From positions 1 to 41,338 of the IMG/VR virus record IMGVR_UViG_3300008113_000506: a stretch of 41,338 nt of DNA, one strand, 5' to 3'. Under the pieces are notes generated by a model, which ran no database searches, was not told the origin of the DNA, and was given only the letters and a program-made list of their open reading frames with translations. The DNA is from a virus. Of this stretch, positions 8,486 to 30,600 are shown one piece after another; within the stretch, counting starts at the first letter, position 1, and each line of letters opens with the position of its first letter. The position numbers and the translations under genes are program-made.

Positions 8486-8501
8486 AGTCAATAAACCTTT
8501 G

Positions 8502-8522: not shown

Positions 8523-8560
8523 GTTTTTATAAAATAACAAAATAAATTTAGGTTTAAAAA

Positions 8561-9943: not shown

Positions 9944-9953
9944 GTTTGTATCC

Positions 9954-10742: not shown

Positions 10743-10765
10743 GCTCAAAATCCTTTATTTTTTAA

Positions 10766-10785
10766 TTTTAATTATATCTTATCAA
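10766..10785 (-). promoter_or_regulatory. Candidate late promoter box upstream of the 262-aa virion gene
   Basis: The minus strand reads TTGATAAGATATAATTAAAA in a 40-base intergenic gap. TATAAT starts 34 bases before the ATG at 10742, and the SD lies between. The TTGATAA plus TATAA combination matches the boxes at 18788-18803 and 22806-22819, with one extra base between the two halves. Confidence 0.5.
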
Positions 10786-10788
10786 TTT

Positions 10789-12540
10789 TTATGGTAAATT
10801 TAATTTAAATTTTATATTTTTTGCATCTAAATCATTTAAACGAGAAACTGATAACTGATATTGATTATTAATATTAAATATTTGATTATTTTGAACGTTC
10901 AAGGTGTCTGGTGTAAAATAAATTGTTATTTTATCTTTATTTCTAAAGTTAGGTAAAAAATCAAAAATTAATTCCTCGTTCTGAAATAATTGTGATTTAC
11001 GTTGCACATATAAATTAGGATAGCTACGAGGAGCATTTTGCATACTGACTTGATCAATAATTAAAGAATTATAAATTTTTGAATATCTTAATCCTATCTG
11101 CGAGGAATAATTCGAAACATATCCATGTGCATCAATCGCACAAATAGCGTAAATATAAGTTTCTTTTGTTAAATCAACCGTCTCATCAGTAAAACTATAC
11201 ATACCTTTGAGTGTATTATCATCTGAAATTTTGATTAAATTTTCAGGAATAATGTCTGAAAACATTTGCATATGCTTAAATTGTGAAATAGGTTTTTTTA
11301 AATATACCTTGATCAGTTGAAAAGGTTCTTCTAAGGTTTGTCTTCGATAAATTTGAAAACCTACGACATCACCTTGAGGATTAGTAGGATGTGACCAATT
11401 TAATTCTGCTTTAAAAGCATGAGTTAAAAATTTAGCTGTCACAGCGTTAGGAGGTTCAGGTGCATAATAATCAACAGCTCTCACAAATTCTGTTCTTCTA
11501 GAATTATTCCAAACTAGATGATGAGAAATTAATGGAAAATTAAATTCTTGATATCCTAAGAAACGATATAATCCTAAATAAAACACAGGAATAACTTCAT
11601 AGGAATATGAATTAGCATAATTTAATAAACCATCATATAATATAATTTGATCGATTGGATTATTATTAATATCTACATAAATAAATTGTGATGCTGTATC
11701 TAAGAATGTATCACCGTTGACATTTTTAATGTGTTTTTTAATTAAAAACCCAATAAAGGCGACGCCTGTTTCATTTTTTAAATTGGCATCATCTTCTATC
11801 ACTGGGGTAATATCGAAAGGAATGAAATTAAATAATAAAGGTGTTGACTCAGTTGTATTGATAATTTCTTTATCTGATCTTTGATTTATAAAAAAACTAT
11901 CAATTTTGTCAGCAGAAACTGAAATATTTTTTGACAAATAATCAATATTTATTCTTTCATTTTCAATTTGATTTATATCAGATAAGAATTCTGCATTTTT
12001 GAAATCATAGGCATATTGAGAAGTTAACTTATTCTGCATAATATCACCTAAATAATCAGAACCGTAAATGACATTTCTTTGATTATATCTAGCTAAAGTA
12101 GGATATAATCGATTATCTACTTCATATGCCTCTAAAATACGTTTTTGATATTTATTATTTAAACCTGAAATAAAACTAATTGACTTGTCATCAAATCTTA
12201 AATTAGAATTAAAATATTCAATTGCTTTAATTTCATCAATAATAGATTCATTTAGATTTTGATTTTGAAAATTTTGAATTTGATCAACAACATCAGGGTT
12301 AATATTTTCTAAAAAAGAAATATTGGAATCAAAATTTAGTCTATCCTTTAAATCTTTTAATTCAATCGTGATTTTATTAGATAAAAACAAATTGATATTG
12401 TCAGATCTTAAACTTAAATCTGCGTCATTAATGGGATGATTATCTTCAGTGTTTTCATCATAACTATGATATGTAAATCCTACAGCAACACCAAATTTAG
12501 GAACATCATAACTGATAATATCAAATTTATTATTTTTCAT
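10789..12540 (-). CDS. Structural protein with fibronectin type III domain, 583 aa
   Basis: Residues about 361-478 look like a fibronectin III sandwich: PEPPNAVTA, then the core ELNWSHP, VVGFQIYRR, and a closing YIYAICAIDAHGYVSNYS. A segment near 310-325 (SYSYEVIPVFYLG) resembles the last strands of another such domain. The N-terminal 250 residues are helical and unrecognised. Such domains commonly stud phage tail tubes, fibres and baseplates and aid surface binding. The ATG follows GGAG by a short spacing and comes three bases after the previous stop, so the pair is co-translated. A tail or baseplate surface role is inferred from the domain and context. Confidence 0.75.
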   Translation of the reverse strand: MKNNKFDIISYDVPKFGVAVGFTYHSYDENTEDNHPINDADLSLRSDNINLFLSNKITIELKDLKDRLNFDSNISFLENINPDVVDQIQNFQNQNLNESIIDEIKAIEYFNSNLRFDDKSISFISGLNNKYQKRILEAYEVDNRLYPTLARYNQRNVIYGSDYLGDIMQNKLTSQYAYDFKNAEFLSDINQIENERINIDYLSKNISVSADKIDSFFINQRSDKEIINTTESTPLLFNFIPFDITPVIEDDANLKNETGVAFIGFLIKKHIKNVNGDTFLDTASQFIYVDINNNPIDQIILYDGLLNYANSYSYEVIPVFYLGLYRFLGYQEFNFPLISHHLVWNNSRRTEFVRAVDYYAPEPPNAVTAKFLTHAFKAELNWSHPTNPQGDVVGFQIYRRQTLEEPFQLIKVYLKKPISQFKHMQMFSDIIPENLIKISDDNTLKGMYSFTDETVDLTKETYIYAICAIDAHGYVSNYSSQIGLRYSKIYNSLIIDQVSMQNAPRSYPNLYVQRKSQLFQNEELIFDFLPNFRNKDKITIYFTPDTLNVQNNQIFNINNQYQLSVSRLNDLDAKNIKFKLNLP

Positions 12541-12543
12541 CTT

Positions 12544-14727
12544 TTACTCCAAAACAATAGTAGAAATACGATATGACACATTTTTAGGAATATATCGTAT
12601 ATTATTTTTTTTATTTATCACAGAATAATAATTCACATTATCGATTTCTGCAGTTTTATCAGATGTTAAACGTAAAATCAAAGAAGTTTCAGTTCCAATT
12701 TCATCTAAAATTTTATTAAGCACAACGCTTGAATCATTTTCAGTATAAATAATTTGTTCAAAATTAAGTTCAGATGAATTAGGCACAAAACGATTTACTC
12801 CACCTGTTAAACCTGTGACAATAAAATCTTTAGGATTAACAGCCATTGTATATATTTTTTGAAAATTATGTGGCGTCATGTTCACAAAATCAGGCAATAA
12901 AGCTTTTGTAAAATCAGACATAAATTGCAAATACACATTTAATTTATGATTAGTTGTAAAATGTAATTTATGAAAATTTAAACCTGCATAAGTATAAGCA
13001 TTTAATTGTACAGCGTTAGATATTTCTTCACTTGTAAAAGGGTACATTTCTTTAATCATATCTTGATTACCTGAAAAGTCTTCAATAAAAATTTTATAGA
13101 CATCACTTAAAACAAACATGTCTTGCATCCATTTATTTTGAGTTAAGCTAAATTCAGGATTTGGTTCAAACCCATTTAATAGTTTACTAATTTTCTTTAA
13201 TCTTAAATTTATTTGTTGATTATGAATGCATCTTTTGATTATATCTTCACGAATTTTTTTCAATTCATCAACTTCTAATTTACTTCTAAAATCATAAGGT
13301 AGTTTTGAATAAATAAAATCATCATTAGCCAAATCTAAAATTTCTAAAATATCATCAACTTTGTTTTGATATAAGATAGGATTTAAGTAACTTTTTTCAC
13401 TAATATAATTTAATGAACCGATATTATTACTTACATTTAATCCATTCACAATTTTATCTGATTTTTGAATAAGTGAATCCTTTAATGTTAATACATCAGC
13501 TGTAAAAATTGATCTATCATTTAATTTAAATTCTAAATAACTTGAATTAATACCGATAGGAGGATTTTCATTTGTAATATCACTAATACTTTGTACTTTT
13601 AAAATATTTCTATGTTGCAAAAAGACATTTTCAATATCTTCAAATGCGGCGCAATATTCAAAGATTTTAGGTTCCCAAACAATTTCCGGAAAATCATGGT
13701 CTGTCATTTCAACCTTGATTAATACAATATCATCTTTATCAAGTTTATAGTCATTGTTGATACCAACTGTTAAAATATGTGAGCCTAAAATGTTTTCGGC
13801 TTGATTTGGAATATTCCAACTATTATTATTGTCAGCTGTTCTTTGATAATTTTTATTGATAATATTACGGAAATTTGCTTCGTTTGTTGTATTTAAAATA
13901 TGCCATAAATCCTTAATATAAAAATCGTCGAAATAAGACATAAAAAAATCGCCGTTTTCGTTTTGATTATTTAAAGTAACAATTTTTTCCATAAATTGAT
14001 TAATATCATTGGAAAAAACATTTTCTATTTCATTTTTAGGCGCCATATTAACAATATTTTTAAGTGCTTTTGTTTTGATTAAACTTTTTATATAATTTTT
14101 TTGTAATTTAACATTATCAATTGATAAATTAAATAAACCTGTATCGATATTTCCAAAGTTAGAGAGATTTGATTTGGCTTGATTAGTATCTAAATTTAAA
14201 TTATTAATGGAGATTTTTTCATTACGAATATTAGTTAGCTTTTGATAGTTTTTCTCAAAGTCTTTTACAAAATTATCATAATAATATAACAATATATCAT
14301 GAGAAAAAGCCAACGCAATATCATTTGTAATCAACCCATGCATAATGTGATTATACCAATTTAAATTAATATCGACATATTTTTGATTTAACATTGACGT
14401 ATTAATTGTGTTTAAATTAAAAGTAAGTTGAGGAATATTTATTACTTTCTCTAAATTCATAAATCCACGTAAATAGTTATAGCTTTCTTTTAAACCTGAT
14501 ATACGGATTAAATCAGAGCTGCTGGAACTTTGATTATTATTATTTTTTGTAACTAATGAATTTTCATAATTTGTTAATAAATTAAAAGAATTATCAACAA
14601 TTAAACCAAAAATATTTGAAGTATTCATTTTTGCTGATATAAGGTAATTTTTCTTATTAGCAATTGTTCTTGTACTACCTTCAGAAAATTGATTATTTTC
14701 AAAATCAACAAGATTAATATAAGTCAA
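12544..14727 (-). CDS. Unrecognised probable structural protein with TTG start, 727 aa
   Basis: I do not recognise a family. The protein is Asn-, Ile- and Leu-rich, with mixed helical segments (for example around DDFIYSKLPYDFRSKLEVDEL) and a beta-like C-terminus ending RISTIVLE. No membrane segment or signal peptide is seen. The only usable start is TTG at 14727, because an in-frame TAA lies eight codons upstream and no ATG or GTG falls between. That TTG overlaps the TGA stop of the 1347-aa gene as TTGA. No strong SD is visible, so it probably depends on ribosomes finishing the upstream gene. It is likely structural from its place in a continuous tail-gene block. Confidence 0.68.
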   Translation of the reverse strand: MTYINLVDFENNQFSEGSTRTIANKKNYLISAKMNTSNIFGLIVDNSFNLLTNYENSLVTKNNNNQSSSSSDLIRISGLKESYNYLRGFMNLEKVINIPQLTFNLNTINTSMLNQKYVDINLNWYNHIMHGLITNDIALAFSHDILLYYYDNFVKDFEKNYQKLTNIRNEKISINNLNLDTNQAKSNLSNFGNIDTGLFNLSIDNVKLQKNYIKSLIKTKALKNIVNMAPKNEIENVFSNDINQFMEKIVTLNNQNENGDFFMSYFDDFYIKDLWHILNTTNEANFRNIINKNYQRTADNNNSWNIPNQAENILGSHILTVGINNDYKLDKDDIVLIKVEMTDHDFPEIVWEPKIFEYCAAFEDIENVFLQHRNILKVQSISDITNENPPIGINSSYLEFKLNDRSIFTADVLTLKDSLIQKSDKIVNGLNVSNNIGSLNYISEKSYLNPILYQNKVDDILEILDLANDDFIYSKLPYDFRSKLEVDELKKIREDIIKRCIHNQQINLRLKKISKLLNGFEPNPEFSLTQNKWMQDMFVLSDVYKIFIEDFSGNQDMIKEMYPFTSEEISNAVQLNAYTYAGLNFHKLHFTTNHKLNVYLQFMSDFTKALLPDFVNMTPHNFQKIYTMAVNPKDFIVTGLTGGVNRFVPNSSELNFEQIIYTENDSSVVLNKILDEIGTETSLILRLTSDKTAEIDNVNYYSVINKKNNIRYIPKNVSYRISTIVLE

Positions 14728-17700
14728 ATAATCATTAGAAAAACTTTACGTGTAATGTTTTTATCTACGAAATTGATACTGGCTGTTTCATTATCAACGA
14801 TCGGATCGCCTGCGGTGCTAATAACGTTTGTTGTTATTTGAAATAAATTAACATTTGTCAAGGCAGCTGTTAAATTATCAAATTCTGAATATGACATTTG
14901 TTTTTCTGAATTACCAATATTTCTTTGCGTAGATTGTAACGCTAATGCAAAATTTCTTTGAAACTCAATATAAGAATTTAAAGAATCATTACCAGCTTTA
15001 AATAAATTCATAATAGTGAGATTTGGAGTTAAATTAATTTGATAATCAATATCATTAGCTGCAGGACTATTATTACGCAAACCAGGAATTAATTGAAAAA
15101 TACCTGCGTCATATAAATTAAATAATTCAAACGGATTTGTCATGAATTCTACAAGATTAATATCAGTATTCAATGAAGTTAAACGTGTATTATAATTTTC
15201 ATTAAACACATTAATATTAGCACTTTCACTATAATCAATTAATCTTTTATATCGAGTGCATAAATTTTCTGCAAAATTAATATTATTGTTATTAGATGTT
15301 TTAAAAATCTGAATTGCGTCAATATTTTGACTCAATATTTTTTCCATTAATATTTCAATTTCACTTTTTTCAATACCTAATACTTCATTTAAAAAATACA
15401 TGAATTTTTTACTAGCGAAACTACGATATTTTAAAAAATCATTAACTGTAAATTGTGTATATAATTGAGGTTCATCTAGAAATATATTTGAATAGTATTG
15501 CCACATATCTTTTGAATATTTATTTAGATCAATTGATACATTACCGCCTGATGTGTTAATACCGCTTAGTAATTTTTGATTATCTAATGAGTTTTCATAA
15601 AAATAATTACTTTCAAAAATACGATCTGATAAATTTGTGTAAGATTGTAAATTATTAAACATTTTACAATAAACTGACGATGCGACCTTTAATGTATTTT
15701 TAATCATAAATTTCAGGTCAACAATACTTCTATTACTATCACTTTTAATTTGCGCAATAAAATTTGAAAAACTATTAACTTGCGTTAAATTTAAATTTCC
15801 GATTAAAGATTTAAATAAATTGATGATTTGGTAAAAAATATTATTATCTAACGCTTTATCTTCCAATTCGACATTATAAGAATTTCCAAAATTTAATACA
15901 TTTAAGAAAGAATTTTGGGTTTGAAAATTATAAGATAATTGTTTTATGTATTTTTTGGCAAGATTTAAATCATCAGCAAACAGACTATTTAAGATGTCAA
16001 CTAAATCAAAAGAATTTGCAAATGCAAGATCTGAGTAAAATTCAAGCATTGCAGCATTATAAATAAAATATTCAAAACGGTATTTATTATCTGGATAAGA
16101 AATTTTTTTAAATATTAATTGAGGCATAAAACAATAAGTTTTATCTTCATATAAATCTTCAAACGCAACTTGCCCTTGATCAGTTCTTGCATATTTACGA
16201 TATACATTATGACCAGTTAATAAGATATTTTTTTTATTTTGATTAAAAACATTGGAATCAGAAATTTCTCCTAATTCATAATTTCCTGCTAATTTATGAC
16301 CTGACACAATTGAAGCATTACTTTTATCGTCTAAAACTTTTGCCATTGCTGACAAGAAATGTGTACTTTTACCGTTGGTTTCAAAAACGTTAGGCGTAAT
16401 ATTATAATATTCGTTTTTAGCTTTATTAAGACGTGCCTGTTTTAAAACTGCAGGGTTTCTTGAATTAGTTGAAAAAGCACTAATAGGTGTTTGTTTATCG
16501 TTAGTGAAAAAACTAAAAAAAGGTGCTAATTCTGTGATAGTTGAAGGAGTAGGACCTTGATTTAAAATGATATTTTCAGCTGACATATTGTAAGCATTTT
16601 GAAAACTGGTTAAATTTTTACTGGAAATATAAACATAACTGATTAATAAATTTATAAAGTTATCTTGAAAGATTTCTCTGTTTTCTTTAGTCATTTCTTT
16701 ACATGCATCATTAAATAACCAAAGAATTGAAGCATTATTTAATAAATCAGCTCTATCTGACGAGAAGTTTGTTTTATTTTTTTTATTTGAATGCCATTTT
16801 ATACTATTTGAACAAATATTTTTAATTTCTTGAAAAAAATTAGCTGTATTCTTAAACACAGGATTATTATTATCATAATATTTGTTCGTAAATTTTTTAA
16901 GCTCTTCTTTTTTAGCTGCCATCTGAGTCTTGATTAAATTAATATCTATATTATTATCATTAATTTGACTATTTAGATTGTTTACATTCGCAATATCATC
17001 ATGACTTGCAATAAAATCATCAACGTTCATTTCACCTAAAATAGAGTTATTAACAATAATTAAATCTTTATTAATTTTATTATTTTTTTTATTGAAAATA
17101 TCAAACACATTATCTTGATTGCTAAAAGATTCTACAAAATTCGATGTAACACTATTGTTATTATTAATTTTAATAATTGAATCATTTAAACTTAATGAAT
17201 TAATATCTTTTTCAATAGGGGTACGATGTTCGACGCCCTTATCTAGGAAATAATTAATATGATTATCAACATTGACTGATGAGGCATCTAAACCTTTATT
17301 AATTGAATACTTTTTATATTTTTTAACAATGTTATTACAAATTAATCTATTTTTAATAATACTACTAGTGAAATTTTCAATATCTTCAAATTTATAATTT
17401 AAAATTCCTTTTTTATTTGTATCAATGACAGATCTAATTTTAATGTTATCGTAATTTGGAATCCCATTAAAATCTTTACTCACAACGCCATATACTAATT
17501 TTAATTGATTTGAATTAACATGATTACCAATTAAATTTAAACATTCTAAATAATTCAAAGTATCTTTTTTACCGATGGAAATAAAAGAATTTTTTTCAGG
17601 GATTGTAATAATCTCTAATAATTTTGTTGAAGGCAACGAATATTCTACATTATTATTTACTTCTTCTGTTATTAAATTAGTAATTTTTGAAGTAAAAGAA

Positions 17701-18767
17701 ACCTGCGGTAAATCTGATTCACTACATAAAAAATTCTCAAACTTAAAAATATCTTCTGATATTTTTTCTTGACTAGCTTTTTTAACATTTGGAATAGTAT
17801 CTAAACCAGAATTAAAGTCTTTGATTAATTGTTTTAATTCTGTGTTATTAATATATTCAAAATTATCAACATATTTGATAGGTAAAATTTCTTTAATAAT
17901 ATCATTTTCAATGATAGGTACACTTGTAAAATCAACAAATTTTAATTTTGAATTTAATTCATCTTCAGTATAAATCCCTTTAAATAAAGAATTGCATGAT
18001 GCATAATCAAAAGAATTTTCAATAATATTATTAATTGAAGTTGCCAAACTCATTAAACTTAAAGGTTTATTATGGTTTTTAATTAAATTTAGTTCGTCTG
18101 TTTTTATGAAATTAAAACCAACATAGGTTTGTAAAAATTTAACAGGATTACCAACTATTTTTTTATATAAATCATGTAATGGTTGATATGTATTGCGATT
18201 ATTACCTCTAATTGTAAAGACAGATGTAGACGCCTGCGCATTAATATCTTCAAAATTTTTAATAACTGTTGAAAAAGAAGATGCATCATTTAATAATACG
18301 CTGTCATCAATCGTAGCATTTGGAAAAGCATTTAATAAAAAAGAATGTGTAAAATCAAATCTGATTTTTTTAGAATTTTTAACGGAACTTGAGATCGCAG
18401 AGATATCTTGAGTAAATAGACTATTTTCTCTTTTTATTTCATATACTAATCTTTCTAAATTGGAAAAAACTTTAATATTTTCAGTTAAAAATTTATTAAA
18501 AATACCATTATCAAAAATGTTTACAAAATCAGTGAGACCACCGAACCTCTTCATTTTTTTATCTGAAATATCTCTAAAAATTTTTTTGTGTTGTTGAAAT
18601 CTTTTTCGAAAATTAATATCTAATTCAAATTTAAAATCTGAAAAATCATATCCCGTTGATTCATTTTGCAAATTAATAAACTGCAATAATTCAGATCTAA
18701 CGTGTATTTTACGATTTTTATCATTTAAAGAATTTATATTTTCCAAATCTTTTTTAAAGATTGCCAT
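14724..18767 (-). CDS. Unrecognised giant probable structural protein, 1347 aa
   Basis: This is the longest gene in the window and matches no family I know. The protein starts MAIFKKDLENINSLN. It is rich in Asn, Phe, Lys and Ile, largely helical by appearance, with a short charged helix near residues 610-630 (MAAKKEELKKFTNKYY). No long coiled coil, hydrophobic segment or repeat typical of a tape measure is apparent. It ends in TGA overlapping the next start. A late-promoter-like box with clustered palindromes lies just upstream, so this gene probably heads a late transcript. A large baseplate or peripheral tail component is the best guess, from context only. Confidence 0.7.
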   Translation of the reverse strand: MAIFKKDLENINSLNDKNRKIHVRSELLQFINLQNESTGYDFSDFKFELDINFRKRFQQHKKIFRDISDKKMKRFGGLTDFVNIFDNGIFNKFLTENIKVFSNLERLVYEIKRENSLFTQDISAISSSVKNSKKIRFDFTHSFLLNAFPNATIDDSVLLNDASSFSTVIKNFEDINAQASTSVFTIRGNNRNTYQPLHDLYKKIVGNPVKFLQTYVGFNFIKTDELNLIKNHNKPLSLMSLATSINNIIENSFDYASCNSLFKGIYTEDELNSKLKFVDFTSVPIIENDIIKEILPIKYVDNFEYINNTELKQLIKDFNSGLDTIPNVKKASQEKISEDIFKFENFLCSESDLPQVSFTSKITNLITEEVNNNVEYSLPSTKLLEIITIPEKNSFISIGKKDTLNYLECLNLIGNHVNSNQLKLVYGVVSKDFNGIPNYDNIKIRSVIDTNKKGILNYKFEDIENFTSSIIKNRLICNNIVKKYKKYSINKGLDASSVNVDNHINYFLDKGVEHRTPIEKDINSLSLNDSIIKINNNNSVTSNFVESFSNQDNVFDIFNKKNNKINKDLIIVNNSILGEMNVDDFIASHDDIANVNNLNSQINDNNIDINLIKTQMAAKKEELKKFTNKYYDNNNPVFKNTANFFQEIKNICSNSIKWHSNKKNKTNFSSDRADLLNNASILWLFNDACKEMTKENREIFQDNFINLLISYVYISSKNLTSFQNAYNMSAENIILNQGPTPSTITELAPFFSFFTNDKQTPISAFSTNSRNPAVLKQARLNKAKNEYYNITPNVFETNGKSTHFLSAMAKVLDDKSNASIVSGHKLAGNYELGEISDSNVFNQNKKNILLTGHNVYRKYARTDQGQVAFEDLYEDKTYCFMPQLIFKKISYPDNKYRFEYFIYNAAMLEFYSDLAFANSFDLVDILNSLFADDLNLAKKYIKQLSYNFQTQNSFLNVLNFGNSYNVELEDKALDNNIFYQIINLFKSLIGNLNLTQVNSFSNFIAQIKSDSNRSIVDLKFMIKNTLKVASSVYCKMFNNLQSYTNLSDRIFESNYFYENSLDNQKLLSGINTSGGNVSIDLNKYSKDMWQYYSNIFLDEPQLYTQFTVNDFLKYRSFASKKFMYFLNEVLGIEKSEIEILMEKILSQNIDAIQIFKTSNNNNINFAENLCTRYKRLIDYSESANINVFNENYNTRLTSLNTDINLVEFMTNPFELFNLYDAGIFQLIPGLRNNSPAANDIDYQINLTPNLTIMNLFKAGNDSLNSYIEFQRNFALALQSTQRNIGNSEKQMSYSEFDNLTAALTNVNLFQITTNVISTAGDPIVDNETASINFVDKNITRKVFLMII

Positions 18768-18787
18768 TATTATTACTCACGAGACTT

Positions 18788-18803
18788 TATTTATATTTAT
18801 CAA
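18788..18803 (-). promoter_or_regulatory. Candidate late promoter box (TTGATAAATATAAATA) upstream of the 1347-aa gene
   Basis: The minus strand carries TTGATAAATATAAATA; its TATAAATA (18795 down to 18788) equals the T4 late-promoter consensus. TATAAA begins 28 bases before the ATG at 18767, which would leave a short leader containing GTGAG. The first 14 bases are identical to those at 22806-22819. The gp55-like sigma encoded at 38548-39396 would be the matching recognition factor. Confidence 0.62.
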
Positions 18804-18820
18804 TTGATAAAGTTTATCAA
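18796..18820. repeat. Nested palindromes of TTGATAAA half-sites
   Basis: Positions 18796-18811 form a perfect 16-base palindrome TTTATCAATTGATAAA, and 18804-18820 form TTGATAAA-G-TTTATCAA. Together these are three head-to-head TTGATAAA units, one of which is the upstream half of the adjacent promoter box. The layout looks like a binding site for a dimeric protein, but an AT-rich chance palindrome cannot be excluded. Confidence 0.5.
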
Positions 18821-18844
18821 AAAATCCGTAGCAATAAATATTTT

Positions 18845-21595
18845 TTAAATCAAAAAGTCATAGAAGTTCAATAGACAATATTGGGCGTCAGTATTAATAT
18901 CAAAAAACTCAATAATATCAGAATCATTATTATTTGATAAACTTGTAGGTAATTCTAATTTAACATAAAGATTGTTGTTTAAAAAATCTAAATTATAAGG
19001 GGCAAAATCCAATGTTGAACGAGTATATGCAAAATTAAAAAATCGACTCAATTCAGGTGTTAAATCTAAAGAAGCGACTATTGTTGCAGAATTTGAGTTA
19101 ATGTTAAAAACATAACTTAAATTTTTATTTAATTCTCTTTTTAATTCTAAACTAGTAAATTCAGGTATGATTTGTGAAATTTCAATATATGAATTATTGT
19201 CTTTAAAATAAAAAGAATTAAAGATATTACTTAATTTACTCAATAGTAGAGTGAAATTTTCATTACTTGAATTCTTTAATGATGCGTCAAAATTAATATT
19301 AAATCTTAAACTTTTGCCTGTTGCATTTCTTAATAAATTGTAATTAATATTTTTAAAGTTGAGCTTGTTTGAATTTGGAATATTCACGGTATTATTGATT
19401 GATAATAAAATTTCATTGGAAGCTTGAGTATCTTTTAAACAAAATTCATTGTATAATTTATAAAGATATATTTGATTTAAATCACTAAATTTATTATCGT
19501 TAATTTTCTTTAAAATTTCAAATATTTCAATTAATTTATTTTCTGATGGTAGGGAATTTTGAAAATTATTTAAACATAAAAGTTCTTTAATTCTTTGTTT
19601 TGTTGCATAATCGTAAGTTGTAATAAAAAATCCGATCGGTATAATCATGATTCTTGCTTCAAAAACATATTTGACATTCTTTTTAACATCTAAATTATCA
19701 AATTGATTTCTTTTGAAAAAGAATCTATTGATCTGAACGTTATCATTAAAGTTAAGTTTTAAATTTAAATCGGTTTCTGTTTGTAATTGTAATTGTAAAT
19801 TATCAAAATTTATATCTTTATTAAAAATGTAATATTTATCTTTAACGTGAATTTTTTCTTGATAGATTGATTTTTTAATAATCACAAAAATGTTATTTTC
19901 AAAATCTCTGGATAATTGTTGTGTTCCTGTCTGTAATTCTTGTAAAAAAATATTTTCATAATTTAAAGACAAGTATCTGTTTAAATTGGTATTTGAATTT
20001 TTAAAATTTTTAATTTTAATCAAATATTCAATATTCAAATTTGAAAAATCTTTGGTTGTTAAATTATTATTGTTAATTGTTAAACTTTGTTCGTAATTTA
20101 CAGTTGAATAAATAGTTTCAATTGGAAAATTAACTTCATAAATTTCAAAATTTTGTTCAAAGATAAATTTTAAACTTAAAGGATTGTTAGCATAATTTCT
20201 TAAATAAAAAGTTAAAATATTTTCTGTTAAATTTGAAGAAACTGTAACAATATCTTTTAACGCGTTACCTTGTAAATTTAAATTTGCAAATGAATCACTT
20301 GAAGGAAGAAAGGTAAAAGTTTGTACTGCGTAATCTTTAAATGTATCGTTGTTAATAAAAATGCTTGAAATTTTAGGATTAAAATTATTATCATTAAAGG
20401 CTACATTTAGTAAACTTAAATCGACCTTAATTAAATTTAAATTAGTTAAATATTTGACAGTCGTGTGATTTAAAAAATTTTGAAATTTTTGTTGTTGAGA
20501 AATTAATGATAATGCTGATTGATCAGAAATTGTATTTACAAAACTTTTAATTACATACGAATTCATTCCTGCAATTTTCATAAAAATTTTATAAGTTAAA
20601 TTGACAGGGGCAGATAAGTCTGATAAATCATTCTCGCATGTTAATGCAATTTTATCAGTTGACGCAAAGACATTTTCAATATTAATTTTATCTAATTGTA
20701 TTTCTATCGGATTCGAATCTTCTTGGATTGAAATAGTTTCAATAGGAAAAAATCCTAATTGCTGTTTAATATCTTTACAGTATTGTGTAGTATTAATGTA
20801 AAATTTTCGTCGAAGGTTATTAAAAACGACACTATCAAATGTCATATTAAGCAATCTATCAAATTCAACATCATCAATATTGTAAAGCAAAGTGGTTGAA
20901 TCAACATTCCAATTAATAATAGAAGTATCAAAATTTTCAATTTTTTTGACATCAATAATTTCATCATTGCTATTCATTGCATAAATGATTAAATCATATT
21001 TTGTAATATTACTAATAGAAGGAAATAAATTGGAATTTGCAACTTTTAAATTAGTACTAAAATTTAATTCAAAAAATAAATCTTGATATTGAGATACGTT
21101 TAAACTCGAATCAACTGTCAAACCTGAATTATAGTTATAAGCTTTTCTACTTGTAAAATTTTCAACACTAAATTTATTATAAGTTGCATTTAAATTTAAA
21201 TCTCTTCCTAAAATATCATTTTTGACTAAATCAAAATTTCTATTTACTGTGTCGTTTGAAATAAAATTTTTTATATTAACTGTTTGATTTTCATCTAATA
21301 AACCTGTATATCCTGAATTTTGAATGGCATTCCATTTACTATTTTGAAATTTATTAATAGTAATTGTTTTAAAATAACTTAGATTTAATTCAGTTGCTTT
21401 TACGGTGTCTATTTGAATAAAAGATCTAAAAATATTGATATTCTTTTCATATCGGGTATAGTTGGCTAAGATTTTATTAAAATTTAAAACTCCAAAAAAA
21501 TTAGGAGTCGTTGTGTTGGTTGTAGTAGGAATTACCGTTCCTAAAATGTTGGGGGGTAAATCACTTTTAAAAATATTACCTAATTTTTTTAACAT
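18845..21595 (-). CDS. Unrecognised large probable structural protein, 916 aa
   Basis: No family recognised. The N-terminus (MLKKLGNIFKSDLPPNILG) is followed by a Thr-rich patch (TTTNTTTPNFFG) and then long beta-like stretches rich in Asn, Ile and Phe. Repeated alternating patterns such as LNLKLNFNDNVQINRFFF suggest a beta-sandwich or beta-solenoid protein. No catalytic motif or membrane segment is visible. AGAGGA lies shortly before the ATG, and the gene follows the 393-aa gene by nine bases. A 77-base gap with a promoter-like box follows it. The context is a continuous tail-gene run, so a virion role is likely; fibre and baseplate roles cannot be told apart. Confidence 0.7.
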   Translation of the reverse strand: MLKKLGNIFKSDLPPNILGTVIPTTTNTTTPNFFGVLNFNKILANYTRYEKNINIFRSFIQIDTVKATELNLSYFKTITINKFQNSKWNAIQNSGYTGLLDENQTVNIKNFISNDTVNRNFDLVKNDILGRDLNLNATYNKFSVENFTSRKAYNYNSGLTVDSSLNVSQYQDLFFELNFSTNLKVANSNLFPSISNITKYDLIIYAMNSNDEIIDVKKIENFDTSIINWNVDSTTLLYNIDDVEFDRLLNMTFDSVVFNNLRRKFYINTTQYCKDIKQQLGFFPIETISIQEDSNPIEIQLDKINIENVFASTDKIALTCENDLSDLSAPVNLTYKIFMKIAGMNSYVIKSFVNTISDQSALSLISQQQKFQNFLNHTTVKYLTNLNLIKVDLSLLNVAFNDNNFNPKISSIFINNDTFKDYAVQTFTFLPSSDSFANLNLQGNALKDIVTVSSNLTENILTFYLRNYANNPLSLKFIFEQNFEIYEVNFPIETIYSTVNYEQSLTINNNNLTTKDFSNLNIEYLIKIKNFKNSNTNLNRYLSLNYENIFLQELQTGTQQLSRDFENNIFVIIKKSIYQEKIHVKDKYYIFNKDINFDNLQLQLQTETDLNLKLNFNDNVQINRFFFKRNQFDNLDVKKNVKYVFEARIMIIPIGFFITTYDYATKQRIKELLCLNNFQNSLPSENKLIEIFEILKKINDNKFSDLNQIYLYKLYNEFCLKDTQASNEILLSINNTVNIPNSNKLNFKNINYNLLRNATGKSLRFNINFDASLKNSSNENFTLLLSKLSNIFNSFYFKDNNSYIEISQIIPEFTSLELKRELNKNLSYVFNINSNSATIVASLDLTPELSRFFNFAYTRSTLDFAPYNLDFLNNNLYVKLELPTSLSNNNDSDIIEFFDINTDAQYCLLNFYDFLI

Positions 21596-21604
21596 AAAAT
21601 CCTC

Positions 21605-22786
21605 TTATTCTATTACAATAGTAAATAAATTTATAAACAAATAATTATCTTCAATAATATATTGACCATTATCTAAATTGTTCGTACTAATATTATCCAA
21701 ATCGATTTCAGATTTTGAATTCAATAATTTTCCAACCGAATACACTTGCACATTTTTTTGAATATCAGTGTCAAAGATTTCACCTTGATTAATAAACAAT
21801 AATTTATTAAAATTAAAATTGTTAGTGTCTGTTTGATTTAATTCTGCCAAATTTAATATAAACTCAGTATCATATTCGCTGTTTTCAAACATTAATTCAA
21901 ATTTTCCTACATTAAAATCATCGTGACCTAAAATTTTAATCGATTCTAAAATTGCTGTATCGACTGACACATCTCCTAAATTTTTAAAATTTTCTAATAT
22001 AGGAGTTGTAATAACACCGTTAGATTTAAAATTCTTAAAAATAATTTTATGAGTATCTCTTTTATCTTCAGCTAAATTATAAAAATTATTAATTTTATTA
22101 TTTCTAGTGACCACGTCTTTATTCATATTTGAAGGAGGCAGAAATAAATAATTTAATTTATTTTTAAATCTATCATCCTCAATCATTGAAGTTTTGGATA
22201 AATTTAAACTATTAGGATTTACCAAGGTAAAGTAATTATTCAATGAATCAATTTGTATATTTACTTGTAAATTATCAGTATTTATAACATTATTTAAATC
22301 AATTTTTTCTTTGTTAATCTTACTCACGTATAAAGATATTTGATTATTTTGTTGTGTGTTATAATTCAGATTAAAAAAATCATCTGTTAAAATAATTCTT
22401 TGATTTATTAAATTTTCAATAATTGTATTTGATATTTTATCTAATACAACCGTGGGTTGTTGCACAATTGAAATATTCTGATAATCATTATTACGTAAAT
22501 TAATGTATTGACCATCAATTTCAGTTCGTAATTCAAAATTAGCTGTTTCTTTTAAATCTATTTCCACATTTATTTTATCAAAAGCACTGCTATTTGCCTC
22601 AAAAGAAAAAGGTATCGCAGTTATATCAGCAACATTATATTCATTTGATATTCTATCATATATCGCATCACGATCTGTGAGCGTTGCATAGACAAAACGC
22701 AAATCGCCATTTTCAATTTGACGATATCCATCTGATGTTAATATAAAATCAACTAAACGTTGCTTTCTATCAAGTATTCCTGACAT
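21605..22786 (-). CDS. Virion protein with GxLD/LTxxGRxxL-type N-terminal module, 393 aa
   Basis: The N-terminus SGILDRKQRLVDFILTSDGY, followed by GDLRFVYATLTDRDAIYD, follows the same pattern as the 262-aa protein at 9954-10742 (GFLD, then LTERGRELL, then DAFALGDDEIDY). The remainder is unrecognised, beta-rich and Asn-rich, ending NLFTIVIE. The ATG follows AGAGA about eight bases upstream. A promoter-like box sits 25 bases before the start, so this gene probably begins a transcript with the 916-aa gene. Two proteins with the same N-terminal module in one tail cluster suggest that both dock on the same kind of structure. Confidence 0.72.
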   Translation of the reverse strand: MSGILDRKQRLVDFILTSDGYRQIENGDLRFVYATLTDRDAIYDRISNEYNVADITAIPFSFEANSSAFDKINVEIDLKETANFELRTEIDGQYINLRNNDYQNISIVQQPTVVLDKISNTIIENLINQRIILTDDFFNLNYNTQQNNQISLYVSKINKEKIDLNNVINTDNLQVNIQIDSLNNYFTLVNPNSLNLSKTSMIEDDRFKNKLNYLFLPPSNMNKDVVTRNNKINNFYNLAEDKRDTHKIIFKNFKSNGVITTPILENFKNLGDVSVDTAILESIKILGHDDFNVGKFELMFENSEYDTEFILNLAELNQTDTNNFNFNKLLFINQGEIFDTDIQKNVQVYSVGKLLNSKSEIDLDNISTNNLDNGQYIIEDNYLFINLFTIVIE

Positions 22787-22805
22787 TATTATCTCTTATG
22801 TTATT

Positions 22806-22819
22806 TTTATATTTATCAA
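22806..22819 (-). promoter_or_regulatory. Candidate late promoter box upstream of the 393-aa gene
   Basis: The minus strand reads TTGATAAATATAAA, followed by AATAA. TATAAA starts 25 bases before the ATG at 22786. A short perfect A/T inverted repeat (AAAAAT, three bases, ATTTTT; 22818-22832) overlaps its upstream edge and could mark the end of the preceding transcript. The 14-base match to the box at 18790-18803 is the strongest evidence for a shared element. Confidence 0.6.
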
Positions 22820-22852
22820 AAATAATATTTTTCGTCAGACTTTAAATTCTTT

Positions 22853-25800
22853 CTATAGGAAAATTTCCGTCATTGCATCGTTATATGCAACATGTTTTAA
22901 ATTAAAAAAATCATCCACATTCCAAGGTGTAATTCCAGAATCGATTAATTGTAAATTTTTAGATTTATTACGAGGAATCAAAGGATTATTTAAATCAGTT
23001 AACTCAAAACCATCAACATTATTAATAAATTTTTGTTCTAACACATACTCAACTGTTTGAATATTTTTAATACCAAGCGATATTTCTGTTGTATACAATC
23101 GTTGTTGTATCATGTCAATAAATTGACCATATTTTCTATTATTATAATAACATGAAAAATTATATCTCTTATTAAGATTAATAAAATCACCTGTTGATAA
23201 TTGTTCTAAAATAAACGATGCCGCCAATAATGCACCTAAAACCGGGAATGAATTTATTAATTCTTCAATGATATCAGCAAATTCAGTTTGTATCTGTTCT
23301 ATAGCTGTTGATAAATTTGCCCCTGATAAATCTTTAAAATCTAATTTAAAAGGTGTAATTGCCGCGGCAATATTAAAATCAAAATATTCAATATCAACTT
23401 TATCAAAATTAGTCGTAATAGGAGGTGGATTATTTGTGTCAATAGTCCCACGATATGATGTTAAATATTTGTTAATATTAGGATTTTGATTATTTTCCGC
23501 CAACAATAATTTTAAAACCTGAGTAAAAGCCTGATCATTGTCATAAATCCATGTTTTATTAACATCTCTTTCTAATTTTGTATAAGGAATGTATGATTTA
23601 CCTGATTTAATTTTTGAAGGTGTCGTTTCATTTAATTTTCTAGTATCTAGTTTAAAAGATCCTTGAAAAATTCTATCATTAAATGTATTAATGTATTCAG
23701 ATAAAAAACCCATGTTACTGTAATCATCAGTTACGATTGATTTATCATCAATAATATTAGTATTTAAAGTCGCTTCCTTTAAACTATTTTCATCAATAAA
23801 AATTTGATTATTTCTTTTTTGATAACCGTGTAAAGTAAATTTAACTTTACCTGCTTTAATTTGACAATTATGTATAAATAATCGTGGAGAAATAGTGGGT
23901 GAAATTGAAAAACAAAAAGCCAGATTGTCATTAGATGATAGAACATAAGGCGAAAAATTACTAGTTCTACTAAAATGAAGATTTGTTAAATCGCTAGCCT
24001 GATAGTTTTTATAATAATATAATGTTTCATCTTCATCGAATGATGTTTGATCAATTTTTTTTAAATTTTTAAATAAATCCTTAGAAGTTTTACGAGCGTT
24101 TATCTTTTTTGTTATATCATGAATTAATTGAGATTGATGATTTATTAGATCTTTACCATCCAATTTATTATTTAACATATTTCTTGTATAATTATAAGTT
24201 ACTTCTTCGAGTAAACCTTCACCTGTCGCTAGATTTATGTTTTTACCGAATAAAGAATATTGTCGTGTAGAATTAAGGCTTGATTTAAATTCAATTTGAT
24301 AATTTAAATTATGCGAATTTAAATAACGAGGATAACTACTTGCTTTTTTAACATAACTATTTAGTTTTATATGATCTTCAAAATCTAAAAATATATAATC
24401 ATCAGGTATTTTTGAAACGTTATTATTAATTAACAATGATTTTGAAATATTATCTGCCAATGTGTCAATTACTAAATCATTATTATTTTTCATTTGTTGA
24501 AACCTTAATAATTTACCAGGATTAGTATAAACAGGTTTATTATCGATAATATCAGATAAAAAATTTTTATTAGACGCATGAAATAACACATTGCCGAAAG
24601 ATACAATATTTTTATTAAATGAAATTTCGTCTAATCGATTTGTCATGTCAGTTATAATTAATGAATCATCAATGTCTTTCCAAAGTTTACGATGAATTTT
24701 TAAATTTTGTTTTGAATTTAAAAGTTCAGAATATTCTAAATCATAAGGTGCCTCACTATTTAAATTATTTAATAACACAGAGGTATAATGTTTTATAGAT
24801 TGTATACTACTTAGTTTACTATTTATTGGATTTCCTAAATTATTAACAGTATTAAAGTCTTTAAAATACTCCTGAGGATTTAAAGATAAAAAATTTAATC
24901 CCACATCTTTTTTGTTCTTATTATCATTTAAAATAAAGTAATTTAATGAAAAATTTAAACCATCTCTAAAATCTAAATCTTCAACATTTATTTCATTATC
25001 TTGAGGTATTTTTATTTGCGCTTTAACTTTAAGATCACAATCAATTGTAACTCTATCAATAATAATATTTTTATTTAAAAAATTTTTCATCGGCATTAAA
25101 TTTTCTTCAAATGCATGAAACGTTGGAAAATGTGGAAAACCAAATTGCATTGTAGGTAATGAAAAATAATTAAAAATATTAAAACTATTTACTTCAGGTC
25201 GAAGCTGATTAATAGGTGTATTAGTTAATGCAAAATGATGATTTTTTAAATTTAATCTGAGTTTATCTTTAAACGGAAGTGTTTGATTGACATTAATATC
25301 AGTGATTACAGAATTTTCTTTTTTTACAAAAAATTTAATACTTGGAATTTGTGCAATGTCAGGAATATCTAAATCTTTTCCTTCATAATCTGTCTCGTTT
25401 ATTCTAGCATGATATCCTCGACTTTCAAAACATTTTTCTTTAAAATTATACATTAAAAATGGAGAATTCTTACGTACAACATTAGGAACAAAATTTTTTC
25501 GAAAATTATAAGGTGATTCAGCCCATGAATTTTCGAAATAACTTACATTATTTGAATCATCCATTTCTTGCATTTTAGCTGTATATTCCAACAATGAATC
25601 TTGCGGTACATCTAATTCAATTTCAATTGAAGTTTCTTCATATAAATTACTATCTAAAAATGAATATTCACCTTCCCCTTTAATAAAATCATTAATATTA
25701 TCATCTAAAATATTTTGAGAATAATTTTTGTCTTTATCACCATTAAAAGGCGTAAAATTAGAAGTGATAATATTACCTTTTTTTAATGATTTTTCGATAA

Positions 25801-26125
25801 TTGCAGTTTGATCATTTAAAAAATTATTGCTACCTTCAAATGGAAATGCTAAATCAGATAAAGTAGAAGGAGATGCTAATTGTTCTGTAGTTGTATTTCT
25901 ATCATTTTGATATTGATTAAAATAAGCCTGAGGTGTTGAATATTTTGATAAATTATCAAAATTAATCGTGTTTTCATCATTATATTTTTTATCAATAGAA
26001 AGTGTTTCAACATTTGTTCCATTAGGAATATAAGGTTGGTTAGTTTGTTGAGTATTTTTGAGACGAGTTCTTTCATTTAAAAAAGAAGCTCCAGATTTTT
26101 TAACGTTATTTTTAATTCTTGCCAT
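22853..26125 (-). CDS. Unrecognised large probable structural protein, 1090 aa
   Basis: No family recognised. It starts MARIKNNVKKSGASFLNERT, a basic and polar N-terminus, and is then Asn- and Asp-rich throughout. Around residue 960 it has an unusually hydrophobic stretch (FPVLGALLAASFILEQL) that is long enough to span a membrane or to pack as a buried helix; the rest is polar. The gene ends in TAG. AAAGGA precedes the ATG, and the preceding gene ends six bases upstream. It sits downstream of the gp7/gpI-type wedge gene, so a baseplate role is possible, as is a role in contacting the cell envelope. Confidence 0.7.
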   Translation of the reverse strand: MARIKNNVKKSGASFLNERTRLKNTQQTNQPYIPNGTNVETLSIDKKYNDENTINFDNLSKYSTPQAYFNQYQNDRNTTTEQLASPSTLSDLAFPFEGSNNFLNDQTAIIEKSLKKGNIITSNFTPFNGDKDKNYSQNILDDNINDFIKGEGEYSFLDSNLYEETSIEIELDVPQDSLLEYTAKMQEMDDSNNVSYFENSWAESPYNFRKNFVPNVVRKNSPFLMYNFKEKCFESRGYHARINETDYEGKDLDIPDIAQIPSIKFFVKKENSVITDINVNQTLPFKDKLRLNLKNHHFALTNTPINQLRPEVNSFNIFNYFSLPTMQFGFPHFPTFHAFEENLMPMKNFLNKNIIIDRVTIDCDLKVKAQIKIPQDNEINVEDLDFRDGLNFSLNYFILNDNKNKKDVGLNFLSLNPQEYFKDFNTVNNLGNPINSKLSSIQSIKHYTSVLLNNLNSEAPYDLEYSELLNSKQNLKIHRKLWKDIDDSLIITDMTNRLDEISFNKNIVSFGNVLFHASNKNFLSDIIDNKPVYTNPGKLLRFQQMKNNNDLVIDTLADNISKSLLINNNVSKIPDDYIFLDFEDHIKLNSYVKKASSYPRYLNSHNLNYQIEFKSSLNSTRQYSLFGKNINLATGEGLLEEVTYNYTRNMLNNKLDGKDLINHQSQLIHDITKKINARKTSKDLFKNLKKIDQTSFDEDETLYYYKNYQASDLTNLHFSRTSNFSPYVLSSNDNLAFCFSISPTISPRLFIHNCQIKAGKVKFTLHGYQKRNNQIFIDENSLKEATLNTNIIDDKSIVTDDYSNMGFLSEYINTFNDRIFQGSFKLDTRKLNETTPSKIKSGKSYIPYTKLERDVNKTWIYDNDQAFTQVLKLLLAENNQNPNINKYLTSYRGTIDTNNPPPITTNFDKVDIEYFDFNIAAAITPFKLDFKDLSGANLSTAIEQIQTEFADIIEELINSFPVLGALLAASFILEQLSTGDFINLNKRYNFSCYYNNRKYGQFIDMIQQRLYTTEISLGIKNIQTVEYVLEQKFINNVDGFELTDLNNPLIPRNKSKNLQLIDSGITPWNVDDFFNLKHVAYNDAMTEIFL

Positions 26126-26131
26126 TTTTTA

Positions 26132-27592
26132 TTATTCCTTTAATCCTAAATAAACTTTTGAATCTCTGCCTGTAGGATTAATTGATTTATCAACATCATA
26201 TCCATTAGGAGAATATACAGCATTATTATCAACAATTCCTTTTCTGTTAAAAAAATTATCTGATAAGGTTTGTAAGATATTATTTTTAATATCTTCATTG
26301 GTAATATCATCATAAAAATTAATAGTATTCACATAATTTTCAGCTCTATTATCATCATTAAAAGGTTGAATTGGGTCGATATGTTCATCAGCGTTTAAGA
26401 AATTAAAATTAATCGTTTGATCCCATAAAGGATAAGGCGAGTCTAATTCTGTAATTACAAATTGAACATCATTAGTAATACTTCCATTTCTATCAAAGAT
26501 TGTATTGGTCTCGTTACTACGTCTTTGGAATTCATAAGATGTCGTTTGAAGTGCAACATTAATAATATCAGAAAAATTTTCAACATTATCGTTGTAACTA
26601 TTCATATTATTGCTTGCAGTAATTACATCTGATACAACATTTACATTTCCACGAGCGTTTACGCCAGCCTCTACAAATGAAAGTTTAATGCCATTGAGTA
26701 AATTTTTAGGTCTGACTTTCCATTCTAAAATGTCTCTAATTTCAAAAGGTTCCAAATATGCGCCAAAATAAAAGTTACGAATATCATTATTGGTGATAAT
26801 AGGATATAAAAGTTTTGAAATAAAAGAATATCTCTCTTGATCTTCTAAGTTTAATAAAATTTTTTCCCAATAATTGTTTAATATTTTTAAAGTGCTGGTA
26901 TTTTCCCAATATCCTAATTTTTCATTATAAACAACAGGTAAGCAATAACCGTTAAAAACTTCATTAAAAGGGCCTTGTAGATGAAAATAAGGATACATCA
27001 TTTTAAAATCATCATTTAAACCTCTGATGGAGGAATCAGATAAATATTGGATTGATGTTGTTTTTTCAAAGAATTCTGTGCTTAATAATCTTTTAATAAT
27101 TTGATAATTTTTTTTATATGAATCGTCCCAAGAGTCTGTATTTAAGATAAGAGAATTATCAACGCTAAAAACATCTGTTTCAGTGTCAGTAAATCTTCTT
27201 TCTTCCCATTCAAATATCGGTGACGCTTTGAAGTTATCAATAAAATTATTGAAATTTTCTTGTTCTCTCAAATTGGTAAAAAATTTTGAAGTAGGGTGTT
27301 TAATCTCGTTTATCTCTGGTGATAACTTGAGTGAAAAGCCATAAGAAATATTATCTTCTAACGCAGGTTTAATCTGAGTGATTCTGGTAGTTATCTGGAG
27401 AGCTTTTTTATCTCGAATGTCATTGGTTTCATAAGTATCGTAATATTCATTGTTAAAAATATCATCTACCGATAAACTTGAATAAGGAACATAATAACGA
27501 CTTTTAACTTCAAAATTAATTAAGCTAGGTGAATCTTCCACACTATCCACAAAAGGAGTGATGGTATTAGGTTCAATGTAAATTGTTATCAT
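26132..27592 (-). CDS. Unrecognised probable baseplate/tail protein, 486 aa
   Basis: The protein starts MITIYIEPNTITPFVDS and ends NPTGRDSKVYLGLKE. Mixed alpha/beta character is seen, with aromatic-rich stretches (MMYPYFHLQGPFNEVFNGYC). No known motif, membrane span or signal peptide is visible. It follows the gp7/gpI-like gene, the place where T4 encodes wedge protein gp8, but I see no sequence feature that proves equivalence. Its AAAAAGG SD lies within the 3' arm of an 11-base-pair A/U hairpin, so its translation may be held down or coupled. Confidence 0.68.
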   Translation of the reverse strand: MITIYIEPNTITPFVDSVEDSPSLINFEVKSRYYVPYSSLSVDDIFNNEYYDTYETNDIRDKKALQITTRITQIKPALEDNISYGFSLKLSPEINEIKHPTSKFFTNLREQENFNNFIDNFKASPIFEWEERRFTDTETDVFSVDNSLILNTDSWDDSYKKNYQIIKRLLSTEFFEKTTSIQYLSDSSIRGLNDDFKMMYPYFHLQGPFNEVFNGYCLPVVYNEKLGYWENTSTLKILNNYWEKILLNLEDQERYSFISKLLYPIITNNDIRNFYFGAYLEPFEIRDILEWKVRPKNLLNGIKLSFVEAGVNARGNVNVVSDVITASNNMNSYNDNVENFSDIINVALQTTSYEFQRRSNETNTIFDRNGSITNDVQFVITELDSPYPLWDQTINFNFLNADEHIDPIQPFNDDNRAENYVNTINFYDDITNEDIKNNILQTLSDNFFNRKGIVDNNAVYSPNGYDVDKSINPTGRDSKVYLGLKE

Positions 27593-27636: not shown

Positions 27637-30600
27637 TTACTGTAATAATCTTCTACCTTCTAATTTCAAATAATTAAAAGATTTCCTAGAATTATTTAAA
27701 TTTGAAATATTCATATCACCTTTCATCACAATATGACTCTCTAAAAATTTATAATGAAATTTATGTCTTTCAAGCGCGTGTGACTCAATTACATAAATGT
27801 TATTATTAAATTTTACGCGACTAGAAATAAAATCTTGCAGCATTTCAGTTAAGACATTGTCAAAAATTTGATATAAATCGTATAAAGGAGTCATTTGAAT
27901 TTGATTACTCTTAATGCGTTTAAAATAAAAATCCGAGAACTTTTCAAATTTATTATAATGTCCTTCATTCATCGCACCAAAATCTGAAATAATATCTGCA
28001 AAAAAAACAATTGAATCAAATAATTTACCAATATCTTCATTTAAATGCTTTGTATTCGACATTTCAATTGAAAACCTAATATCGTTTTTCTTTTGCTTGT
28101 CATAATTGATCTCATATACTGGGGTTGCCTGTACGTTAAATTCATTAATTAAATTTTCATCTTGAAAGCTGAGAGGTATTACTTTATTATCCACATTAGG
28201 TTCGTCAAATTTAAAATCATTTTCATAATTAATAGTCGTTCTAAAAGTTAATTTATCTAAAGGCTTTAGATTATTCACGCCTAATATTTTAAAAGGATAT
28301 ATCGACTCATTATCAATCGTAGGTAATGCACTGTTTTCACTATAATCGATTGGGTATACAATATTTTCAGCAAGATTAGTATAAAATTTATTATCTTGTA
28401 ACGTTAAATTTAACAATAACAAATCTGAAATTTTTTGATATTGCAAAAATTGAAATTCATGATTTGAAAAAGAGGTAATATCTAACGCATGCATTTTTAA
28501 ATCATTTTTTGATAAAACGTTTTTCCAAATTCTTAAATGAGAAAACTGTCCATTAAAATTTTCATAACCCAATTTAATAATTTTATTAGTTTGTTGTGTT
28601 AATCTTAATTGATCAGCGTTAATGATATTTTTAAAAACTATAAGATTATTTTCAGTTAAATCTGCATTATTAGAACAATTTTGAACAGAAAAAGAAACAT
28701 TTCTTTGAAAAGTATCAGAATTATCAATTGATAATACAACGTGTGAAATATTGTTATTTAATAAATTAACGTTGTCAAGTTGTATAGTTTCTGTATTATT
28801 ATTATTTTGATATAAAATTGCCTTTAACTTACCTGTATTTTCCTGACTGTTTTTTTCAAATACAATTTTAAAAATATCTAAATTTGAATTTTGAGATTTA
28901 ACAGATAATAACACTTCATTCATATTTTCATTTTTAATTAAGAACGGATAATGAATATAAAATTCAAAAGAATAAGAGCTTGAATTATAATTCATTAAAC
29001 CGTTTAAATAACTAATATCAAAATCACATTTTAAATTAGTATTAGTGTTGGAAAAATTAAAAAATTTAATATTCTTTATTTTTCTTAATAATGAATTCTC
29101 AATAAATCGTGATTGGGATTTGCCAAATTCCCTAAAGCGATAATATTCTTCAGGTACTACACCAATAGCATTAAAAATTGAACGAATTGCATTTTTAGTT
29201 CCTTTAGATTGTAAAATGTCTCGAGAATTAATTAAAATTCTTTTCCACAATTCGTTCTGCACAAACCTTAAACTAAACTCACTCTTGTCAACGCCATCGC
29301 TACCAATAATATAACCATCTAATAATTTAGAAGTAGGTGAATTCATGATTTCTTTAAATTCAAAACCTGAATTTTTTGCCATTAATGGTAAGAAAAAATT
29401 AACAGCGCTATCAACTGAATTCAAAGCCGTATAATCAATATTGATTAATTTTGGCATCACATCCAAATACATCTTAATTTCATCAAAAAAACGAGCCCAA
29501 ATTAATAATAATTTACTAAAAGTTTGTACCCCTTCACCTTTTTGTTGCCCGGGATAATTTAATGTATCTTCATCAGTTGAAGTAGAATCAAAGATATAAT
29601 ACGCTGTAGCACTATCATATTTAAAAGGCTCTGATAAACCTTCAAACACAGCCCCTTCATTAAAATAATGTCTAGGAAATAATTTAAAAATTAAATTAGG
29701 ATTAAATAAATCATATTCTTTCGCCTCACTTAATAGATTATTATTTAAAGTAATATTAGAGGTAAATGTAGGCATTAAACAAGGATTGTCATCATCTTTT
29801 TCAAATTTTAAAGAAGGTCTAGGTTGCAAAACATCTTGAGGATTATATCGTAAAGATGAAATAATTGTACGAAATTCAGTAATTGGATCTGGATTACTAC
29901 CGATATGTTTTAATTGTATACGAGAGTGTAATGAATTACCACTTGAGTCAAAACAAAACATGTTTTTCTCATAAATACCTGTCGGTTCATTAAACTTAAA
30001 ATATAGTTTTAAAGTATCTTGGGCAAAAATATTAACATCTTTATACTTAATAATCCAATCCTGATCAATCGCTTGATGCAAAAATCTAAATTCATCAATA
30101 TATCCTGAAAATGATTGTGAATTATTTGACAAATTATATGCACCATTATCATCAGTGCTAATATGAGATTCACCTTTACCAATATAAAATTTTATAGATT
30201 TATCAATTTCTAAACCATCATTGATATTAAAATTTTGAATTGCATCAATTTCAAATTGTTCAAATGAGTTTAACCAAATTTTTAATTGTTTTGAATTGGA
30301 GGTTTCATTATTACGATTATTATTTACACAAATAGAAATGTGTTGCCACGAATTCACAGGCACTTTAAATTTAGCCAATAGTTTACTTTTATTAGTGGCA
30401 TTACTTACATGTAATACAAGATTAGCGTAAGTAACAGTGTCAGTTTCAGTTACAAAATCTTTAATAAAAAGAGAAAATCCATTTTTATTTGTATCTATTT
30501 TATCTAAATATTGAAATATAACTTGAGGTACAATTGTTTGGATTGGATCGTAATTTATCCAAATTCTAAAATCAAAAGAAAAAGCCGCTTTTCCAGGATT

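Follow-up and report, generated by a model that had tools for sequence, protein, structure and literature searches.

Genes of the window and content of the block

The window, by which we mean the whole stretch of DNA that was analysed, comprises a 41,338-bp piece of an uncultured viral genome, and nearly all of its coding lies on the minus strand. In the direction of transcription a nuclease-like, a sigma-factor-like and a spike-like gene (all three recognised by eye) are followed by genes for gp25 and gp6-type baseplate wedge proteins, a 652-aa protein and a LamG-like 1145-aa protein at the gp7 position, and then by a block of mostly giant genes. Beyond the block lie genes of 264, 460 and 996 aa, a RuvC-like gene, a primase and an SbcCD fusion, so that the block is flanked by gp25-gp6-gp7-like wedge genes on one side and by fibre genes on the other. 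The fusion is a single 1044-aa ORF (807-3941) that joins an SbcD-like phosphoesterase and an SbcC-like ATPase; it recurs in relatives, and in LR756508 the two parts seem to be separate. The genes that concern us are the following:

34759-35352, minus: gp25-like baseplate wedge protein, the anchor upstream of the block (Pfam GPW_gp25, E 1e-5; phrog_261, E 6e-8)
33073-34749, minus: gp6 or baseplate J-like wedge protein (tblastn to the 'baseplate wedge protein' of immuto, E 3e-34; alignment)
31067-33025, minus: f652, a 652-aa wedge-cluster protein conserved in arrangements with and without the block (HMM family)
27637-31074, minus: 1145-aa protein at the gp7 position, the last before the block (Laminin_G_3, E 2.5e-4; family f1145)
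26132-27592, minus: f486, wedge-side block gene (orthologues in G001, G002, L016 and G020)
22853-26125, minus: f1090, giant wedge-linked block gene (iterated HMM family)
21605-22786, minus: f393, first gene of the fibre-linked sub-module (profile match to its sister family, E 2e-27)
18845-21595, minus: f916, giant block gene (orthologues in G002, L016 and G020)
12544-18767, minus: f2105, one 2105-aa gene present as two ORFs, 14724-18767 and 12544-14727 (intact in G001, G002 and G020)
10789-12540, minus: f583, predicted tandem FN3 protein that closes the block (HMM family; AF2 model)
9954-10748, minus: f264, first fibre-region gene (common to immuto and Mel-JY01)
8561-9943, minus: f460, fibre-region protein with a C-terminal module
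5501-8491, minus: f996, LamG-like protein of the fibre region that shares the C-terminal module of f460

An earlier note on this DNA had described the block as six proteins (486, 1090, 393, 916, 1347 and 727 aa) that belong to no recognisable family, apart from a short N-terminal module of the 393-aa one. All six ORFs were found on the minus strand at the coordinates reported, none had a significant Pfam or PHROG match, and no internal repeats were found in the giant block proteins. The six ORFs are nonetheless not six genes. The 1347-aa and 727-aa ORFs are one 2105-aa gene, as a single unbroken ORF occupies this site in G001 (2105 aa), G002 (2093 aa) and G020 (1846 aa); two ORFs that were listed separately are now recognised as its pieces. 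They are seen apart because 94 bp present in G001 are missing from the window at about position 14743, which shifts the frame. The span first proposed holds five genes, or six with the 583-aa gene added, and its limits were drawn too narrowly, as the conserved unit also takes in this next gene (10789-12540). The intact block reads 486-1090-393-916-2105-583 and totals 5573 aa.

Two blocks of contig G001, of 19,864 bp and 9,209 bp (together about 29 kb), match the window at 100% identity, and a third block of 3,837 bp has 4 mismatches. A second, in-frame difference was mapped at about position 34606, where 186 bp (62 codons) of gp6 that are present in G001 are missing from the window. With these restored, gp6 has 620 aa, as in relatives; alignment with the relatives demonstrated that the window copy lacks 62 conserved residues because of this deletion. 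At both breakpoints (14743 and 34606) the overlap is just 1 bp, and the two deletions may be either assembly errors or a true variant.

The block proteins had also been singled out as rich in Asn, Ile, Lys and Phe. They are, with a combined fraction of 0.33-0.41, but gp6, the gp7-like protein and the 996-aa protein score alike (0.33-0.37), at a GC content of 22-27%, and relatives of higher GC that carry the same module reach 0.16-0.29. The richness mirrors low GC and not function, and composition was dropped as a sign of a special system.

A late-promoter-like element, GATAAATATAA, or RATAAR(A)TATAA, lies on the minus strand at 22807-22817 (before f393), 18791-18801 (before f2105), 10772-10783 (before f264) and 8511-8521 (before f996). 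Four of its four coding-strand matches in G001, and likewise in G002, fall 30-41 bp before starts, for a motif that was found by eye and picked after the sites were seen. The element is weak in G020, where 2 of 10 matches are near starts. The T4 late promoter, TATAAATA, was not enriched on the coding strand of G001, G002 or L016.

Recurrence of the block in uncultured relatives

Relatives were gathered by a gp6 scan of viral contigs, extended by scans with f393 and f460. Synteny in metagenomic phages, which the earlier note had proposed to look for, was found: the order of the block and the sizes of its genes recur in dozens of contigs. The order runs gp25-gp6-f652-gp7-like, the f486 slot, f1090, zero to two further genes and f393, and continues through the f916 slot, the f2105 slot, f583, f264, f460 and f996 to RuvC, primase and SbcCD. 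Among 80 loci obtained with the f460 query, near-duplicates included, f264 lay upstream in 79 and f583 in 75, and the gene immediately upstream of f583 was at least 1000 aa long in 60. It was cut by the locus end in 8, and one exception measured 782 aa. Apart from this 782-aa case and the broken window copy, intact genes of the f2105 slot have 1174-2127 aa.

The families of the block differ in how closely they can be followed. Both f1090 and f583 are tied to their sister families by BLAST and iterated HMMs, f486 matches its sister slot with a profile probability of 88% (E 3e-6), and f2105 matches its sister family with a probability of 94% (E 8e-8) over 53 columns only. For f916, profile comparison detected no sequence similarity to the proteins of the sister slot, which are mostly 600-1020 aa long with a weak FN3-like signal, and its place in one module in the sister clade is given by position only. 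The size of f1090 ranges from 869 to 3376 aa among relatives, and in G004 (L111-L112) ORFs of 1740, 3376, 1511 and 2249 aa follow one another behind the gp7-like gene. Family f1145 is conserved in immuto, Mel-JY01 and LR756508; the gp7 or gpI identity of the 1145-aa protein is putative, from position and by eye.

It might be thought that such giant ORFs arose by chance or as assembly artefacts of an AT-rich contig, since the window does have two deletions relative to the otherwise identical G001. These deletions, however, disrupt a giant gene and do not create one, and relatives at 36-51% GC retain the same gene order and sizes. The relatives already refute such an origin, and we give it a negligible chance.

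In two contigs, G016 and G017, gp25-gp6-f652-gp7-like-f1090 lie on one strand, and f393, the f916 slot, the f2105 slot, f583, f264, f460 and f996 lie on the opposite strand, about 30-50 kb away. As the f1090 part and the f393-f583 part are separate there, the block consists of two linkage groups: f486 and f1090 belong with the wedge, and f393 to f583 with the fibres.

Two relatives, G020 and G021, carry a T4-type terminase, portal, capsid protein and tail sheath (phrog_2, phrog_213, phrog_138 and phrog_23), which are not within the window itself. In G021 the tail-sheath genes form a tandem pair (L245:4681-7875 and 7924-10962) of about 1000 aa each, roughly twice the usual size, and a 1884-aa ORF at the portal position (G021:C1:101179) has, by eye, an apparent intein or homing endonuclease insertion. 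These genomes bear on the proposal that f2105, and perhaps f1090 too, serves as the tape measure or is an internal tail protein that is ejected, a role that its large and variable length would suit. In G021 the two sheath genes (1064 and 1012 aa, phrog_23) are followed by a 1658-aa protein, called tape-measure-like by eye without a PHROG match; the f2105 slot is about 40 kb away, making it unlikely that f2105 is the tape measure. Furthermore, the f2105 slot lies among fibre genes and not between tube and hub genes. With the sheaths and a candidate tape measure elsewhere in G021, the proposal was rejected as very improbable.

One of the contigs with the whole module aboard, PBIO01000013.1 (108,871 bp; L256, L259-L264), was binned with a Halobacteriovorax MAG. 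The phage may have this predatory bacterium as its host, or the contig may have been mis-binned.

Relatives without the block and the T4 periphery

In 16 loci (immuto, Mel-JY01, LR756508 and 13 contigs) the gp7-like gene and f264 are adjacent or one to two genes apart, whereas in the window clade giant genes in conserved order fill this slot. Like the window, immuto and Mel-JY01 have gp25, gp6 (28-30% identity), f652, gp7-like, f264 and f460-type genes in the same order, and Mel-JY01 runs on into primase and SbcC-like genes. Unlike in the window, the gp7-like gene and f264 are adjacent in Mel-JY01 and separated by one gene in immuto. Searches of the complete immuto, Mel-JY01 and LR756508 records gave neither f583 nor f1090, though they detected the positive controls G021 and G027; of f393, these whole records yielded an f264-type N-terminus, in Mel-JY01, and nothing more. 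In a midpoint-rooted tree of 91 gp6 sequences, 57 of them unlabelled, rows with the block (19) and rows with the direct arrangement (15) are split by one branch with a support of 100; the tree leaves the direction, gain or loss, undecided. By its block the lineage is set apart from the closest deposited phages.

As the earlier note pointed out, the block occupies the position of the T4 gp8-gp12 stretch, between the gp7-like gene and the fibre genes. None of the PHROG and PDB profile comparisons maps a block protein to a known baseplate protein. Profile searches of the PDB with f583, f393, f1090, f486 and the sister families of f916 and f2105 gave no phage baseplate chain and only generic FN3 or chance matches; the window-clade f916 and f2105 were compared with Pfam and PHROGs as single proteins. 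Using tblastn against INPHARED, no match was obtained for f1090 (the window protein and two sisters) or for the sister proteins of f583, f2105 and f393.

Structure prediction, by which the note had proposed to check the block, gave a usable model for f583 alone among the block proteins; that of f393 was unusable. The f583 model (AF2) has a mean pLDDT of 73 and a well-defined core, and its top matches in the PDB are FN3 tandem structures (E 8e-7) rather than anything like gp8-gp12. In a library of viral structures unnamed viral proteins matched best, followed by FN3 and tail-tip proteins. By this prediction f583 contains tandem FN3 domains.

These results can be set against the view that the block proteins are diverged and enlarged one-to-one orthologues of T4 gp8, gp9, gp10, gp11 and gp12, and that the periphery is of the ordinary T4 type. 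The position behind the gp7-like gene and ahead of the fibres is the same, and sequence searches can miss distant homologues, as the f916 slot demonstrates within the clade itself. On the other hand, the PHROG and PDB profiles are silent, T4 baseplate chains are missing from the top structural matches of the FN3 tandem f583, and sister T4-type phages manage without f583 and f1090. The block is also much larger, at about 5570 aa, than T4 gp8-gp12, which together have about 1970 aa. We regard one-to-one orthology as unlikely, though not far-fetched.

Two other phages offer parallels. A precedent is Bacillus thuringiensis phage 0305phi8-36, whose baseplate/fibre region has multigene insertions that code for large unassigned virion proteins, along with FN3-bearing genes; they are linked to unusual baseplate-borne curly fibres, and the module proteins were placed in the virion by mass spectrometry (PMC2147016). 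The window resembles it in having large-protein modules and FN3 genes at the same kind of site, but its block proteins are only presumed to lie in the virion; the block proteins searched had no INPHARED match, in a collection whose inclusion of this phage is unconfirmed. In Klebsiella phage RaK2 a large tail-tip attachment complex of many proteins is encoded largely together (gp526-gp534), and its long fibres are mostly depolymerases (PMC10253068). The clustered large genes of the window recall this complex, but unlike RaK2 the block has no enzymatic domain in Pfam and PHROG scans. In the papers searched on immuto, Mel-JY01, RM378 or the window clade no description of the module was found. Contractile tails with extra appendages are already known; these protein families and their clade-wide arrangement were not found described in those papers.

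A candidate tail-tip module

We propose, with a probability of roughly 60%, that the block encodes late structural proteins of the distal contractile tail and is a module specific to one lineage, a large uncultured T4-related clade, in which a wedge extension is combined with an accessory appendage or platform. In this scheme f486 and f1090 would enlarge the gp25-gp6-gp7-like baseplate wedge. The N-termini (45-66 aa) of f393 and of the fibre-region protein f264 are related (E 1e-7 in a profile comparison of sister families), and it is through this module that f393 might dock. Together f393, f916, f2105 and f583 would build an accessory appendage for host contact, or a peripheral platform, with the giant FN3-bearing assembly of f916, f2105 and f583 as its body, next to the ordinary fibres f460 and f996. 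The C-terminal module of f460 recurs on tail genes of Mel-JY01 and immuto and on one gene of RM378. We infer the presence of the block proteins in the virion, the docking of f393 and an adhesive or spacer role. In favour of the module we count the filled slot between the gp7-like gene and f264 with its branch in the gp6 tree, the lack of f583 and f1090 in immuto, Mel-JY01 and LR756508, and the frequency with which f583 and a giant neighbour precede f460. The two linkage groups, the kinship of the f393 and f264 N-termini, the FN3 tandem of f583 and the T4-type sheath, portal, capsid and terminase genes of relatives also speak for it.

The earlier note had suggested a peripheral baseplate or an added tail structure. 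The position and the missing match to known proteins speak for this, and with two linkage groups the suggestion divides: the best term for the 486-1090 pair is 'peripheral baseplate', and for 393-916-2105-583 it is 'accessory appendage'. Three observations count against the structural module: f916 has no homologue detected in the sister clade, FN3 domains are generic, and the phrog_8510 label ('virion structural protein') matched by one distant f1090 relative falls in the category head and packaging, not tail. The products of the block genes could instead be late proteins that stay out of the virion and act, for instance, as chaperones or scaffolds in the assembly of a large tail and fibres, given that no domain proves a virion role and that helpers are often needed in fibre assembly. 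Helpers are usually small, however; a size of up to 3376 aa, the FN3 domains and the linkage with structural genes suit virion parts better, and we consider the helper role improbable.

Returning to the structural module, we would advance a further step only tentatively, namely that a second tail-tip organelle defines the lineage. It would comprise the f393-f916-f2105-f583 appendage (about 4000 aa per set) with its f264-related docking module and the enlarged f486/f1090 wedge, all of undescribed families.

The block amounts to a clade-defining conserved candidate tail-tip module, with no closely related isolate in the collection searched, whose families matched no phage baseplate protein in PHROGs or the PDB. 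It probably builds an extra host-attachment structure that known laboratory phages do not have. Since the gene set is defined, its borders are clean and a sister arrangement lacks the block, one can now test the target of attachment as well as the way in which baseplates of the T4 type gain new parts.
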